The translations under genes and the position numbers were made by a program. The notes beneath the pieces were generated by a model. That model had not been told where the DNA came from and made no database searches. It saw nothing but the letters and a program-made list of their open reading frames with translations. A stretch of 64,000 nucleotides of DNA from an uncultured Magnetospirillum sp. Its GTDB lineage: Bacteria; Pseudomonadota; Alphaproteobacteria; Rhodospirillales; Magnetospirillaceae. The stretch's first letter is position 1. Every line of letters starts with the position of its first letter. Of this stretch, positions 17,525 to 21,741 are shown piece by piece. The DNA lies in NCBI RefSeq assembly GCF_903853455.1, contig NZ_CAINTR010000144.1, positions 1-64,000 of the forward strand. Reading direction: 5' to 3'.

Positions 17525-17779
17525 ATGAAGAAGCCCTCCCCGGCATGGAAATGGTTCGGCATCGGCTGCGCGATCAGCCTGGTGCTGTCGGTGCTGGCCA
17601 CCATCGCCCTGGTCGGCGACAAGATGGACAAGGCCGGCGCCGATCCCGCCTTGGCCGCCCCGCCCCTGGCGGTGGCGGTGTCGGTGCTGATGACCTTCTT
17701 CGGCCTGCTGATTCCGGCGGTGGCGCTGTGCGGCGCGGTGGTCGTCATCGTCGACGGCTATTCCCGCAAGGCCCGCTGA
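17525..17779 (+). CDS. Small two-helix membrane protein
   Basis: An 84-residue hydrophobic protein without a recognised family. Two predicted membrane helices are WFGIGCAISLVLSVLATIAL and the region around VSVLMTFFGLLIPAVALCGA. The N- and C-termini are basic. AAGGA precedes the ATG. The TGA stop sits within the presumed start region of the following methyltransferase gene, so the two may be translationally coupled. Function unknown. Confidence 0.72.
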   Translation: MKKPSPAWKWFGIGCAISLVLSVLATIALVGDKMDKAGADPALAAPPLAVAVSVLMTFFGLLIPAVALCGAVVVIVDGYSRKAR

Positions 17780-19377
17780 TTCCCCCCCGCGACATCGCCG
17801 GCCTCGGCCGCGACGGCATCGAGGCCGAGCTGGGCCTGCTGGAAGCCGAGACCTGGCCGCCGCGCCACAACGTCCACAAATATTGGGGCAAGAAACCGGC
17901 CAACGTGGTGCGGTCCTATGTCCAGTATTTCTCCCATCCCGGCGAGACCGTGCTCGACCCGTTCTGCGGCAGCGGCGTCACCCCCATTGAGGCGGCCCTG
18001 CTGGGGCGGCGGGCGGTGGGAGTCGACTTCAACCCCTTCGCGGTGGCGCTGGGCCGCGCCCTGGCCGCCCCGCCGGAACCATCGGACTTCAAATGCGCCG
18101 CCGCCGCCATCCTCCAGCGGGTGGAGCCAGAGATCCGCGCCCTGTTCTCCACCACCTGCCGCGACTGCGGTCGCGCCGTGGCGGTGCGCAGCTTCGGCTA
18201 TGACCGGGACCGCCTGCTGGCGGTGCGCTACCGCTGCCCCTGCACCCGCAAATCCAGCGCGGTGCCGCCGACCGACGCCGACAGGGCGCTGGCGGCGCTG
18301 GCGGTGGAACCGGTCCCCGGCACCCCCGACGCCGACATCCTGTTCGGCTGGGAGATGCGCAAGCTGAAGCGCCACGGCGGCATCCGGCGCTGGAGCGACC
18401 TGTTCACCCCGCGCAATTACCGCATCGCCGGGGCGATCTGGGCGGAGATCCAGAGCTTCCGCGACCGGCCCGACCTCCACGCCTGGCTGTCGCTGACCCT
18501 GACCGCCAGTCTGGCCCAGTTCACCCGCATGATCGCCGATTCCTCGGGCGCCGGCGGCGGCCCCAGCTGGAAGATCAATAGCTACTGGCTGCCGGACACA
18601 TGGCAGGAGCTCAATCCGCTGTGGTACTTCGAGAACCGGGCCGGCAAGAGTCTGGCCGGACTGGTCGATCTGGCCCAGCAGCCGGTCACCCACCCGGCGG
18701 ATATCCGCCAGGGTGACAGCCGCAGCCTGCCGCTGCCCGACCTCAGCGTGGACTATATCTTCACCGATCCGCCCTATGGCGGCGAGGGCATCCAGTACGG
18801 CGAGTTGTCCACCTTGTGGAATCTGTGGCTGGGCGCCGAGGCGGCGCTGGAGCGCGAGATCGCCTTCAACCCCGTCCGCAACCTGTCCGCCGGCCACTAC
18901 GCCGCCGGCCTGGACGCGGTGTTCGCCGAGGCGGCGCGGGTGCTGCGCCCGGAGCGCTGGATGACGGTGACCTTCGCCAACAAGACCCCGGCGGTCTGGG
19001 ACGCCCTGATGACGGCCTGCCGCACGGCCGGCTTCACCCTGGTCACCGCCGCCCCCATGACCCGCTCGGCCCCGTCACTGACCGAGACCACCATGCGCCA
19101 AGCCCCCAAGGCCGACCTGATCCTCAGCTTCCAGAAAACCCGCCGCCGCGCCGCCATGCCCAGAGACGACGCCTACCGGCTGCCCGAGCGGATCGCGACC
19201 ATCATCGCGGCCATGCGGGCGGCGGGGATCGGCGTGACCGCCGCCGCCCTGTTCGACCGCGTCACCATCGACTGGTTCTCCTGGTTCTACCAAGGCGGCA
19301 ACCGGCCGGAGAGCGTCACCCCCACCCTGGACGCGGTGGAACGGATTCTGGCCGACCGCAGGGACGCCGCGTCATGA
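17776..19377 (+). CDS. Zn-ribbon-containing DNA methyltransferase (COG1743/DUF1156-like)
   Basis: About 533 residues. Motif I DPFCGSG lies near residue 60 and catalytic motif IV DPPYGG near residue 330, the order of gamma-type N6-adenine (or N4-cytosine) DNA methyltransferases. The lead-in HNVHKYWGKKPANVV is characteristic of this subgroup. Between the motifs lies a cysteine set, CRDCG then CPC, that looks like a zinc ribbon. No restriction endonuclease gene is adjacent, so it appears to be an orphan. No ATG/GTG/TTG start fits: the frame opens at CTG 17776 or ATT 17779, overlapping the stop of the small membrane gene, with AAGG just upstream. Its TGA overlaps the ATG of a broken arfB copy. 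Confidence 0.82.
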   Translation: MIPPRDIAGLGRDGIEAELGLLEAETWPPRHNVHKYWGKKPANVVRSYVQYFSHPGETVLDPFCGSGVTPIEAALLGRRAVGVDFNPFAVALGRALAAPPEPSDFKCAAAAILQRVEPEIRALFSTTCRDCGRAVAVRSFGYDRDRLLAVRYRCPCTRKSSAVPPTDADRALAALAVEPVPGTPDADILFGWEMRKLKRHGGIRRWSDLFTPRNYRIAGAIWAEIQSFRDRPDLHAWLSLTLTASLAQFTRMIADSSGAGGGPSWKINSYWLPDTWQELNPLWYFENRAGKSLAGLVDLAQQPVTHPADIRQGDSRSLPLPDLSVDYIFTDPPYGGEGIQYGELSTLWNLWLGAEAALEREIAFNPVRNLSAGHYAAGLDAVFAEAARVLRPERWMTVTFANKTPAVWDALMTACRTAGFTLVTAAPMTRSAPSLTETTMRQAPKADLILSFQKTRRRAAMPRDDAYRLPERIATIIAAMRAAGIGVTAAALFDRVTIDWFSWFYQGGNRPESVTPTLDAVERILADRRDAAS

Positions 19378-19484
19378 TCCAGATCACGCAGCGCATCGCC
19401 CTCGACGAGAAGGAAATCGAGGAGAATTTCATCCGCGCCTCGGGTCCCGGCGGCCAGAACGTCAACAAGGTGGAGACGCCATAG
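19374..19484 (+). pseudogene. Truncated 5' fragment of arfB (original N-terminus)
   Basis: Thirty-six codons starting MIQITQRIALDEKEIEE and ending GGQNVNKVETP before a stop. Bases 19374-19478 are about 90% identical to the first 105 bases of the intact arfB at 20151, with a 27-base perfect core at the end (19452-19478 versus 20229-20255). The ATG overlaps the methyltransferase stop (ATGA), so this was probably the native arfB start before an insertion separated it from the rest of the gene. Confidence 0.85.
19452..19478 (+). repeat. 27-bp direct repeat, left copy (arfB GGQ region)
   Basis: Identical to 20229-20255. The block begins GGCCAGAACGTC and ends GGTGGAGACG, encoding GQNVNKVET, the invariant GGQ-loop segment of release-factor-type hydrolases. 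The two copies are 777 bases apart and bracket the AT-rich insert. Confidence 0.88.
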
Positions 19485-19529
19485 CTAGATCAGCCTTCGG
19501 ACCCTGGATCGAATTGCGGCATTATCGCT

Positions 19530-19557
19530 TTGTTCCCAATCTATTTAGCTGTATAAA
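19530..19557 (+). promoter_or_regulatory. Candidate sigma-70 promoter for the inserted lipoprotein gene
   Basis: TTGTTC at 19530-19535 and TATAAA at 19552-19557 are separated by 16 bases, within an AT-rich tract 33 bases upstream of the lipoprotein ATG. This is close to a housekeeping consensus. Prediction only. Confidence 0.45.
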
Positions 19558-19590
19558 AATGTTGAATGTAATCTTTTTACGTGATGTCCC

Positions 19591-20109
19591 ATGAAGCTCA
19601 GAAACATCGCTCCTCTGGCCGCTTTCCTTATGGGCGCGTGCACATCCGCGCCGCCACCCGAGACCTTGAAAAATCTCTACGAAGTGGAGAGTGCCGCACG
19701 GCAAATGAAGCCACAGCCAGAAATGGCACTTCTTTACTTGGTGTCAACAGAGTCTACCAACAAAGCGGATGAGGTTTCCCTTCGCATTAATGGCGAAATG
19801 TCCATGAAGAAGGGGTTCTTCGAAGGACAATTCTATGTATTTTGCTTGCCCGCAGGAAAATACGATATTACTTATAGGGCGGACCTGCTGTCACCTAATA
19901 AGCAGGAATTCCTAACGGCAGAGGCTGGTGGCATTTACGTTCGCGACTTCAGTCAACACGTATTTGCGCTGCCGCCCTTTATCTTTTTATCGAGTTCGAC
20001 CTTAAAAGAGAGAGACCTCAAGGTCGCAAAGGAATTGATTGCGGCTAAACGCATCGGCTCGGAACCTGAGTACATCGATTCACGCTATCGCTGCCGATCA
20101 CTTAATTAG
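19591..20109 (+). CDS. Putative lipoprotein, horizontally acquired
   Basis: A 172-residue protein with a lipoprotein-type N-terminus (MKLRNIAPLAAFLMGAC, Cys17 as likely lipidation site). The middle reads VSLRINGEMSMKKGFFEGQF, then YVFCLPAGKYDITYRADLLS, a beta-rich pattern that recalls DUF2846-type lipoproteins with their small-extension-plus-PGKY turn; this match is tentative. Base composition is clearly more AT-rich than every neighbour, and codon choice includes many A/T-ending codons, signs of foreign origin. It is the only gene in the insert that splits arfB. The ribosome-binding site is weak. Confidence 0.78.
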   Translation: MKLRNIAPLAAFLMGACTSAPPPETLKNLYEVESAARQMKPQPEMALLYLVSTESTNKADEVSLRINGEMSMKKGFFEGQFYVFCLPAGKYDITYRADLLSPNKQEFLTAEAGGIYVRDFSQHVFALPPFIFLSSSTLKERDLKVAKELIAAKRIGSEPEYIDSRYRCRSLN

Positions 20110-20150
20110 AAGTGTGGCTCAGGGAGCTGATCTGTCGATATAAGCTTCCC

Positions 20151-20576
20151 ATGATCCAGATCACCCACCGCGTCTCCCTCGACGAGAAGGAAATCGAGGA
20201 GAGCTTCATCCGCGCCTCGGGACCGGGGGGCCAGAACGTCAACAAGGTGGAGACGGCGGTCCAGTTGCGCTTCGACGCCCGCCGCTCGCCGTCGCTGCCC
20301 GACGATGTCAGCGTGCGGCTGCAGAAGCTGGCGGGAAGCCGCCTGACCCTGGACGGCGTCATCGTCATCACCGCCCAGGCCCATCGCAGCCAGGAGCGCA
20401 ACCGCGCCGACGCGCTGGCCAAGCTGGTGGAGCTGATCCGCGAGGCCGCCAAGCCGCCTCCCCCCAAGCGCAAACCGACCAAGCCGACCAAGGGCTCCAA
20501 GGAGCGCCGGCTGGAGGGAAAGGGCCGGCGGGCGGAGGTCAAATCCCTGCGCCGGGGCAAGCCTGACTCTGACTGA
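20151..20576 (+). CDS. arfB: Peptidyl-tRNA hydrolase ArfB (alternative ribosome-rescue factor)
   Basis: A 141-residue class I release-factor-like protein (ArfB/YaeJ) that frees ribosomes stalled on non-stop mRNA by hydrolysing peptidyl-tRNA. The catalytic loop SGPGGQNVNKVET is at about residues 23-35, followed by the family segment LRFDARRSPSLPD. The C-terminal basic tail (KPPPPKRKPTKPTKG, then RRLEGKGRRAEVKSLRRGK) is the part that enters the empty mRNA channel. The first 105 bases duplicate the fragment at 19374, so this intact gene has a probably insert-supplied 5' end and has lost its overlap with the methyltransferase gene. Confidence 0.93.
   Translation: MIQITHRVSLDEKEIEESFIRASGPGGQNVNKVETAVQLRFDARRSPSLPDDVSVRLQKLAGSRLTLDGVIVITAQAHRSQERNRADALAKLVELIREAAKPPPPKRKPTKPTKGSKERRLEGKGRRAEVKSLRRGKPDSD
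20229..20255 (+). repeat. 27-bp direct repeat, right copy (inside arfB)
   Basis: Second copy of the 19452-19478 block, here within the intact arfB coding sequence at the GGQ loop. It marks the right end of the arfB insertion. Confidence 0.88.
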
Positions 20577-21198
20577 CCGGTCGGTATATGGCTTTGCCCG
20601 GCCTGTGGATGTTTCGTCCCTGCACGGATGACGATCCTGACGATCACCACCGCTGTTCAACCTGCATAACCACCGTGCAATTTAGAAAAAACGAGCAAAT
20701 TCGCCCCTTGGTTTGCAAGGCCCCATGGGCAGGATGGCCCGCTCATCCGTGCGTAAATACCCAGCGAAATATGTGGACAAAAGGGGCAAAGCGGGGATAA
20801 CTGCCTTGGCGCACGGCCCTTTCTCCGTCATGGCCGGACGTGTTCCACTTCTGTCCGGTTTAAATCGTGCGGTTGATTTGGGGCTGGCGTTGTTATTCAC
20901 CACCAAGGCACCAAGGACACTAAGAGGTCTCCCGGGTGGCGCCGTTTCGTCTTCCGTCCGCGCAACGGGGCAATAAAATTGCTCAAGGCGTCGATGGAAC
21001 GTGAAGCGATGCGGCCGCTCCGTTCTCTTGGTGTCCTTGGTGCCTTGGTGGTAAAAAATCCATGTCCATCCGGGATGACGTGGCCGGAAAGCCATCCGCA
21101 GCAATGCGCTCGGTGGCACCGCGTGGATACCCGTGACGAGCACGGGCATGACGGCGAAGGGACGGCCCAGGCTCTTCTGGATGGATCGGTAAAGCGGA
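20577..21198. other. Gene-free stretch with dispersed repeats
   Basis: About 620 bases between arfB and the recombinase-like gene contain no convincing coding sequence in either strand. The first 270 bases show nothing recognisable. From 20846 onward the stretch is composed of repeats, listed separately. It may hold the promoter of the recombinase-like gene, but no clear one was seen. Confidence 0.6.
20846..21052. repeat. Dispersed repeat copy 2, with inverted CCTTGGTG arms
   Basis: Bases 20846-20935 align with the reverse strand of 509-603. Within it, the arm CACCACCAAGGCACCAAGG (20898-20916 and onward) is repeated in inverted form at 21021-21052 (TTGGTGTCCTTGGTGCCTTGG), about 100 bases away. 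Arms of this CCTTGGTG type recur as non-coding repeats in many proteobacterial genomes. Confidence 0.7.
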
Positions 21199-21741
21199 AT
21201 GATTGTCGGCTATTTCAGGACGATGGAACCGGAGGACGCGGGCAAGCCGTCGCCGACCGCCAGCCTGCGCGCCGCCCGCTGCCTGCGCATCGAGTCGGAC
21301 CCGCCCGGATCGCGGGAGGCCCGCCGTCGCCTGATCGCCGACCTTGCCAACGGCGACATCCTGGTCTCGCCCTCCATCGACCACCTCGCCGCCTCCATCG
21401 CCGACCTGATCGCCGTGGCGCGGCGGGTCCACGCCCGGGGCGCCACCCTGCGGCTGGTGGCCGAGCAGATGGACTCCTCCGTTCCCGCCGCCCGCAACGT
21501 GCTGGCGGCCATGGCCGAGTACGAGCGCCGCGTCCTGGCCGCCCGCCGCGCCGCCGGCCTGCGCGAGGCGGAGCAGCGCGGCGCCGCTCCCGGCCGGCCG
21601 CGCAAGCTGGACGAAACCACCGCCCGGGCCGTCCGCGACGAGATCGCCTCGGGCCGGACCCATGCCGCCATCGCCCGCGAAATGGGGGTGCACCCCACCA
21701 CGATCATGCGTCTGGTCGGCCGTCTGACCGAGCCCGATTAG
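21199..21741 (+). CDS. Serine-recombinase-like protein lacking catalytic residues
   Basis: A 180-residue protein with the layout of a small resolvase/invertase. It opens MIVGYFRTMEPED, where true recombinases have Y-x-R-V-S-T; the nucleophilic serine is replaced, here by Met. The second active-site block reads SIDHLAAS instead of LDRLGRS, so two catalytic arginines are missing. The rest of the family pattern is intact: EYERRVLAARRAAGLREAEQ, then GRPRKLDETTARAV, and a Hin-like helix-turn-helix (GRTHAAIAREMGVHPTTIMR). It is therefore probably a DNA-binding protein that no longer cuts DNA. It converges on the TonB-type gene, the two stops overlapping by 4 bases. Confidence 0.83.
   Translation: MIVGYFRTMEPEDAGKPSPTASLRAARCLRIESDPPGSREARRRLIADLANGDILVSPSIDHLAASIADLIAVARRVHARGATLRLVAEQMDSSVPAARNVLAAMAEYERRVLAARRAAGLREAEQRGAAPGRPRKLDETTARAVRDEIASGRTHAAIAREMGVHPTTIMRLVGRLTEPD

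Follow-up and report, generated by a model that had tools for sequence, protein, structure and literature searches.

A recurrently split arfB in the family of an uncultured Magnetospirillum: a probable attachment site for recombinase-bearing elements that bring an arfB of their own

How does a gene come to have two starts and still be complete? The question is raised by arfB, the gene of a ribosome-rescue factor, in an uncultured Magnetospirillum sp. The stretch that we analysed, called the window here, comprises 64,000 nucleotides (nt) of contig NZ_CAINTR010000144.1, and in it a broken arfB start is followed by a low-GC (guanine-cytosine) insert and then by a full arfB. We consider it likely, from sequence comparison with related genomes, that codons 29-31 of arfB are the attachment site (attB) of phage-related elements with large serine recombinases, that these elements bring a whole arfB with them, and that the window holds the left-end scar of one of them, its recombinase end having been lost. 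Genomes, contigs and loci are referred to by our handles (G, C and L numbers), G000 being the genome of the window.

The locus is marked by a 106-nt direct repeat (19373-19478 and 20150-20255, 92% identical, 777 nt from start to start) that includes a perfect 27-nt block read from the sequence (19452-19478 = 20229-20255); counted from the ATG, the two arfB copies differ at 10 positions over 106 nt. The repeat, together with the NCBIfam match of the downstream product (NF006718, 195.8 bits against a cut-off of 100, with the GGQ present in GPGGQNVNK), confirms what an earlier note on this DNA had proposed, namely that the arfB start is duplicated, with 36 upstream codons fused to an ATGA, where the remnant's ATG at 19374 overlaps the methyltransferase stop, and a full gene downstream. 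The features of the locus are as follows.

17545..19377 (+), open reading frame (ORF) of a DNA methyltransferase in the upstream flank (PF01555, 2e-18), with an ortholog and upstream synteny in G011
19374..19484 (+), native arfB 5' remnant, 36 codons and then TAG (19482-19484), assigned from the sequence and from relatives with the same break
19443..19489 (+), junction resembling a left hybrid attachment site (attL): arfB half with AACGTCAAC (19458-19466), 13-nt spacer and element arm CATAGCTAGA (19480-19489)
19490..20150 (+), AT-rich cargo, with a GC content of 48% counted from 19480
19591..20109 (+), orphan lipoprotein-like gene of 172 amino acids, the sole clear gene of the insert, with sub-threshold similarity to DUF2846
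20113..20143 (+), promoter-like TGTGGC-N18-GATATAA ending 7 nt 5' of the arfB ATG, of leaderless type (by eye)
20151..20576 (+), full arfB, 141 amino acids (NF006718)

GC content is 47.8% over the 671 nt that begin with the motif at 19480 and end before the downstream ATG, compared with 68.2% for the window, and none of 1267 sampled stretches of this length was equally low. The low-GC insert with one lipoprotein gene is upheld as well, and so is its entry into arfB beside the GGQ codons with a replacement 5' end that leaves a full arfB. As far as the sequence tells, the insert supplies the promoter-like stretch (20113-20150) and the N-terminus in frame from 20151, as in the 5'-end replacement of the dusA and SXT type. 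The promoter-like sequence resembles that of the relatives' arfB, and our strict promoter regular expression missed it.

The same break recurs in relatives. A search of 60 of them found arfB pieces beside full arfB genes in further genomes. The window's family counts 55 genomes, 50 of which have a full arfB (9 + 41, in two scans), and the gene is split in 8 of the 50: G000, G005 (which has two remnants), G010, G013, G016, G153, G155 and G156. Other inserts at the GGQ site of arfB, which the earlier note had suggested looking for, therefore exist. Seven of these genomes hold eight 5' remnants between them, all broken close to codon 31 and ending at codons 30-36 of about 139 by tblastn or profile; the end in G153 was set at codon 36 by tblastn, its profile match running to position 89 through five stop codons. 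No arfB piece in the family scans was broken elsewhere, except for pieces cut by contig ends, and those in G123, G298, G084 and G055, which end in this way, were excluded from the counts. Extra matches in G004 and G030 proved to be release-factor-like on reading. Two full copies were found in none of the 55 family genomes. Pieces of the 3' part are present in three genomes, joined to the arm in G016 and G010 (codon 28 or 29) and cut by the contig start in G155 (codon 73). G005 has two successive remnants before one full gene, at ATG-to-ATG distances of 1193 and 166 nt, as expected if a rebuilt gene had been hit again.

Beyond the family, more than three arfB or release-factor matches were counted in 17 of the 317 genomes of the order; 16 of these 17 and three others were gone through in full, and G013 separately. 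Counts outside the family are lower bounds. At least two further genomes, the sister species G054 and G291, have a remnant at the same codon with a different sequence after the break. They represent a second kind of insert at this arfB codon (L035 7993-8085 and L097 7107-7199), with TGTTGTTWATTTTGCGG sequence following the break. A sample of 49 genomes of the class (E 0.001) contained 16 others with a full arfB, none of them with a remnant.

What follows the break is as regular as its position. The exogenous motif CATAGCTAG stands exactly 13 nt after AAYGTCAAN in seven remnants, and at the diverged junction of G156 AACGTCACC and CATAGCGAGA are found at the same distance. Across 31 fetched loci (990,608 bases, both strands counted) the motif occurs 7 times, always at arfB junctions, six of them left and one right; in the window it occurs once, at 19480. 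A search for core and arm together (the attL pattern) yielded 7 sites, every one at arfB, in 6 of the order's 317 genomes, with 0 matches for a reversed-pattern control, and picked out in the GTDB collection three contigs (metagenome-assembled genomes of Phaeospirillum, Rhodospirillales and Magnetospirillum) that correspond to G013, G153 and G155. On the other side, the 3' arfB piece is preceded by an inverted arm in both G016 and G010, the G010 arm having one mismatch. Left hybrid junctions are thus seen at a fixed site in the window and its relatives, and right ones in G016 and G010, and inverted arms around a short shared core have the look of serine integrase hybrid sites. The right-junction pattern gave 0 matches in 100 genomes drawn evenly from the order (G010 and G016 not among them), and the attL pattern and one resembling the element's own site (attP) gave 0 in viral contigs. 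We discarded the promoter GTCGATATAA as a sign of the element, since it also precedes arfB in G008, G012 and G017, where no remnant was found. G010 has a mirror form of the arrangement (L033 6732-8318, minus strand), with full arfB, nucleotidyltransferase cargo, inverted arm and 3' arfB piece, the left end being gone.

Both ends of an insert are preserved in G016. Its arfB locus (L032) is collinear with G010 on both sides, apart from an extra 3-kb stretch on the left in G016, and the two outer arfB pieces go with G010: the 5' piece is 90.5% identical to G010 and 76.2% to the full arfB of G016 itself, and the 3' piece is 82.6 and 85.6% identical to the two copies of G010 and 65.5% to its own full gene. 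The pieces enclose the left arm and, with its ATG 60 nt beyond this arm, a full arfB from a different lineage. Further along, the insert encodes a restriction-enzyme fragment (PADLOC REase_MTase_IIG, 2.4e-205, covering 450 of 1646 profile positions) and a helix-turn-helix protein; last comes the C-terminal portion of a large serine recombinase (zinc ribbon PF13408, 5e-11), with its TAG stop inside the right arm. The nearest relatives of this recombinase, 47 and 48% identical, belong to G008 and G009, where by eye they interrupt a comM-like gene. These large serine recombinases are at L059 7236-8870 (minus strand) and L060 6749-8497 (plus strand), the G008 one (L059) beside a tape-measure gene.

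A second case is G155. Collinearity with G033 extends, on contig C152, through 5.1 kb of left flank (89%) and the 5' remnant. After the break the contig continues with a whole foreign arfB and another 3.3 kb, in which there is a small ORF with a lipoprotein signal (by eye). The insert also encodes a superinfection-immunity protein with a zinc ribbon (PF14373, 2.3e-15, L100 9292-9639, plus strand), and the contig ends in a recombinase tail (PF07508, 8.9e-6), 77% identical to the last part of a second recombinase in the prophage region of G009. Contig C153 starts inside a native-type 3' arfB piece (90.0% identical to G033, 81.1% to G020 and 68.7% to the full gene of G155 itself), beyond which it is collinear with the right flank of G033 (87% over 2.1 kb); the arfB of G033 is uninterrupted. 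The link between C152 and C153 was not sequenced, and since both are exactly 10,000 nt long they may be cut pieces of one scaffold. The full arfB of G155 matches G148 in both parts (88.1% and 86.2%) and the remnant matches G033 (86.9%); the idea that this full gene is a 5'/3' chimera was rejected because G148 matches both halves. G148 itself has a single arfB (L151 5168-5584), of the foreign type seen in G155, with the changed core described below and no remnant; this could be a complete replacement of the native gene.

The foreign origin of arfB is clear from these identities in G016 and G155, and the comparisons indicate that in each of them arfB received a phage-like insert containing a whole arfB (for G155, across the contig break). 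No tyrosine integrase was seen in the window insert or in Pfam scans of three ORFs of the G016 relic and six of the G155 insert. G033 also answers, for G155, the search for uninterrupted sites proposed by the earlier note, both flanks and both native halves being collinear. G008 and G009 do the same for G013 with both flanks directly, and for G005 in part, the right flank matching directly but the left one not until 2.1 kb out. For the window, no empty site in which methyltransferase and arfB still overlap (ATGA) was found; the nearest candidate, G011, has a chemoreceptor-like gene between the two. The left flank of the window up to the methyltransferase matches G011, and the right flank beyond arfB matches none of the compared loci.

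The course of events that we favour is the following. The attB would be AAC GTC AAC, codons 29-31 of arfB, next to the GGQ. Integration would split the gene into a left junction, made of the native 5' arfB and an arm ending CATAGCTAGA, and a right junction, made of the inverted arm and the native 3' arfB. Just inside its left end the element would bring its own promoter and a whole arfB, with cargo in front of it or none, so that rescue activity would be kept and ArfB would stay active. Loss of the recombinase end at a later time, probably by homologous recombination between the 3' halves of the element's arfB and the native arfB, would fix the left part as a scar. The window would be such a scar with lipoprotein cargo, produced by a recombinase of the kind left in G016. 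The 777-nt unit with a 5' end that the earlier note described is a real insert, but it is probably the remainder of something larger, a recombinase element that arrived with a whole arfB.

An element that carries attP together with an ordinary copy of attB should recombine with itself, which would give a reason for the codon change seen in some inserts. Three inserts have no cargo between arm and arfB (the second of G005 and those of G016 and G155, all 166 nt from ATG to ATG), and their full arfB reads AAT GTA AAT AAA (G005, G016) or AAT GTG AAT AAG (G155) with the protein unchanged; the remnants and most of the compared relatives have AAC GTC AAC AAG or close to it at these codons. The GTR form is found in 7 arfB genes of the family, in 3 of 3 inserts of 166 nt and in 4 of 47 others (35/19,600 by hand, for a comparison chosen after seeing the data). 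A tentative extension, which we would sooner doubt than accept, is that the element uses the codons beside the GGQ as attB and carries a whole replacement arfB that is synonymously recoded there (AAC GTC AAC AAG to AAT GTA AAT AAA), so that it would not integrate into itself and the restored gene would be closed to related elements until the codons revert. Inserts with cargo (window, G013, G153 and G156) have kept the ordinary core, and this speaks against changed codons as a general rule. We dropped the view that the changed core is peculiar to inserts, a wider pattern being present in 55 of 317 genomes (it also matches release factors). Ancestry is an alternative source of the change, because the strict form occurs without a remnant in G017 and G148 and GTR forms occur in many genomes of other families. 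Of the second kind of insert, the full arfB of G054 has changed core codons and that of G291 does not.

Several observations weigh against this course of events as a whole. A search of the window's genome with the G016 relic (E 1e-8) found no recombinase, and neither a right arm nor a 3' arfB piece was found there. The G016 recombinase is a relic that lacks its catalytic part, no intact element was found, and the element of G155 is cut by contig ends. The G016 recombinase piece matched 13 stretches of viral contigs, none of them a relative, and had no relative in phages or plasmids. Relatives of arfB do occur in viral contigs (39 loci, with best segments 27-61% identical, many over the GGQ part only), and arfB-like matches in three phage records are 32-47% identical. 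The main weakness is that the full arfB of the window has ordinary core codons, and an element holding both attP and this copy might recombine with itself; a model with a whole gene then needs later gene conversion or another route, where an element that carries only the 5' end explains the codons directly. Such conversion between the two window copies may have left a trace. Twelve arfB-like bases, AAGGTGGAGACG, precede 19479 in the window, whereas in the seven other remnants (the exact motif in six, a diverged one in the seventh) the spacer at this place is not arfB sequence; for this reason we take the long perfect core of the window to be probably a later homogenisation rather than the original crossover, and the arfB-like spacer that leads up to the arm suggests partial overwriting of the remnant from the full copy.

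The first alternative is the earlier note's model taken literally, in which the end of an element carries only a promoter and the 5' codons of arfB, and one integrase crossover in the core joins these to the native 3' half. It fits the units of the inserts and the unchanged core of the window, and it has published precedents in the dusA islands and in SXT at prfC. It also fits a further point that tells against our own account, which is that promoter-bearing arfB genes share their 5' halves beyond their 3' halves. Among 31 arfB genes (8 with inserts and 23 without), sharing of the 5' over the 3' half is +11.5 points for the 36 pairs in which both have the TGGACG-N-GATATAA promoter and +3.3 points for 231 pairs without it, a difference reached in 10 of 5000 label shuffles; this test was chosen after seeing the data, its regular expression left out G000 and G153 with their slightly different promoters, and related genomes are not independent. 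Nevertheless, native halves enclose a whole foreign arfB in G016 and G155, the full gene of G155 matches G148 equally in both parts, the changed core of the 166-nt inserts extends past the left crossover point, and the short units have no integrase gene. On balance we regard this alternative as unlikely. The further suggestion that the window's 5' end came from another strain was not borne out: over 84 nt neither window copy has a closer match than the other (89.3%). After the full copy, G012 and G005 come next for the remnant (88.1%), and no donor is singled out.

A second alternative, which we judge improbable, is that a circular DNA with a 5' segment of arfB entered by a homologous single crossover, with no site-specific enzyme acting at the locus. 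The insert does lie between direct repeats of about 90 nt of arfB, and different lineages share 5' halves, both of which fit this reading. Against it, the break codon, the arm and the 13-nt register are constant despite the different content of the inserts, and the arm is inverted at the right junctions of G016 and G010. Tandem duplication of arfB with decay of the first copy, which the mutual best match of the window copies would favour, is very improbable and already contradicted, given that the eight family remnants stop at the same codons with the same motif (seven exact, one diverged), that the cargo is low in GC and varied, that double full copies are missing from all 55 family genomes, and that G155 set against G033 displays insertion into an uninterrupted gene.

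Returning to elements that bring a whole arfB, the stretches between their arm and arfB are low in GC and differ in content from insert to insert. In the window the lipoprotein-like protein starts with MKLRNIAPLAAFLMGAC, its lipobox being imperfect (by eye), and its similarity to DUF2846 (E 0.0086, 16.6 bits) is below the cut-off of 34.3. Its gene matched only itself in 149 genomes (0 of 148 others), the protein had no match in viral contigs, phages, plasmids, PHROGs, PADLOC or NCBIfam, and its predicted structure model has a confidence (pLDDT) of 42. The cargo of G005 contains two ORFs with lipoprotein signals and that of G156 a phosphoesterase-like ORF (both by eye), G013 and G153 have small ORFs, and a nucleotidyltransferase lies between the arfB copies of G010 (PF01909, 1.7e-10; PADLOC PDC-S09, 2.2e-12). 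One guess is that the lipoproteins help to exclude other phages, a guess made less idle by the immunity protein held in the G155 insert.

Some neighbouring features of the window are recorded here in their own right. The methyltransferase ORF (17545-19377) that adjoins the arfB site has PglX-like PADLOC matches (3.2e-49), and the start of this ORF is probably placed too far upstream. After arfB there is a long imperfect inverted repeat (20893-21058, with 71-nt arms that are 70% complementary) containing ACCACCAAGGCACCAAGGACAC-type sequence. Further on, a resolvase-like protein (21199-21741, plus strand; PF00239, 1.8e-15) aligns with residues 38-129 to profile positions 48-144, leaving the start of the domain unaligned. 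This is the part in which the catalytic serine lies, and the protein may be inactive or a regulator.

If our account is correct, arfB is one more conserved gene in which mobile elements find a safe site, with codons that can hardly be changed at the protein level, and a whole replacement gene is a way to keep an integration target working. Should the synonymous change confer real immunity, it would be a natural removal of an attachment site without a change in protein. The nine-base arm with its fixed register can be used to find more scars. A warning also follows, in that arfB phylogenies in the window's family mix lineages.

Replacement of the 5' end of a target gene is already known from SXT at prfC and from the dusA islands. 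The passages of PMC3715440 that concern us give prfC as the integration site of SXT, and those of PMC4131195 treat tmRNA gene fragments from islands, with ArfB as a backup and not as a site. Among the open-licence papers listed by our searches, no title or abstract start has arfB as an integration site, and the target, the recombinase type, the whole-gene copy and the layering were not met there. Staphylococcal cassette chromosome (SCC) elements insert at the 3' end of rlmH by serine recombinases, accrete serially at this one site in a conserved gene and leave it functional. Our case resembles them in having serine recombinases, one site in a conserved gene and serial accretion, and differs in that no ccr pair and no resistance cargo were seen; the G009 recombinase has weak similarity to CcrA and CcrB, at 51.5 and 50 bits, below the cut-offs of 700 and 900. 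The integrative and conjugative elements of the SXT/R391 type at prfC and the dusA islands (IMEVchUSA3) share with it the replacement of the 5' end of the target, which is here the GGQ region of arfB. They use tyrosine recombinases, whereas the enzyme-bearing relics here have serine recombinases, the whole target gene is carried (G016, G155) and the cut is near codon 30, just past the catalytic motif. The enzymes themselves resemble the large serine recombinases of the phiC31, TP901-1 and SPbeta type, the G016 relic having the recombinase zinc ribbon and its 48%-identical full-length relative in G009 matching these integrases. Prophages with such enzymes usually disrupt or silence their target, whereas at arfB the insert supplies a substitute for its target, and scars accumulate.

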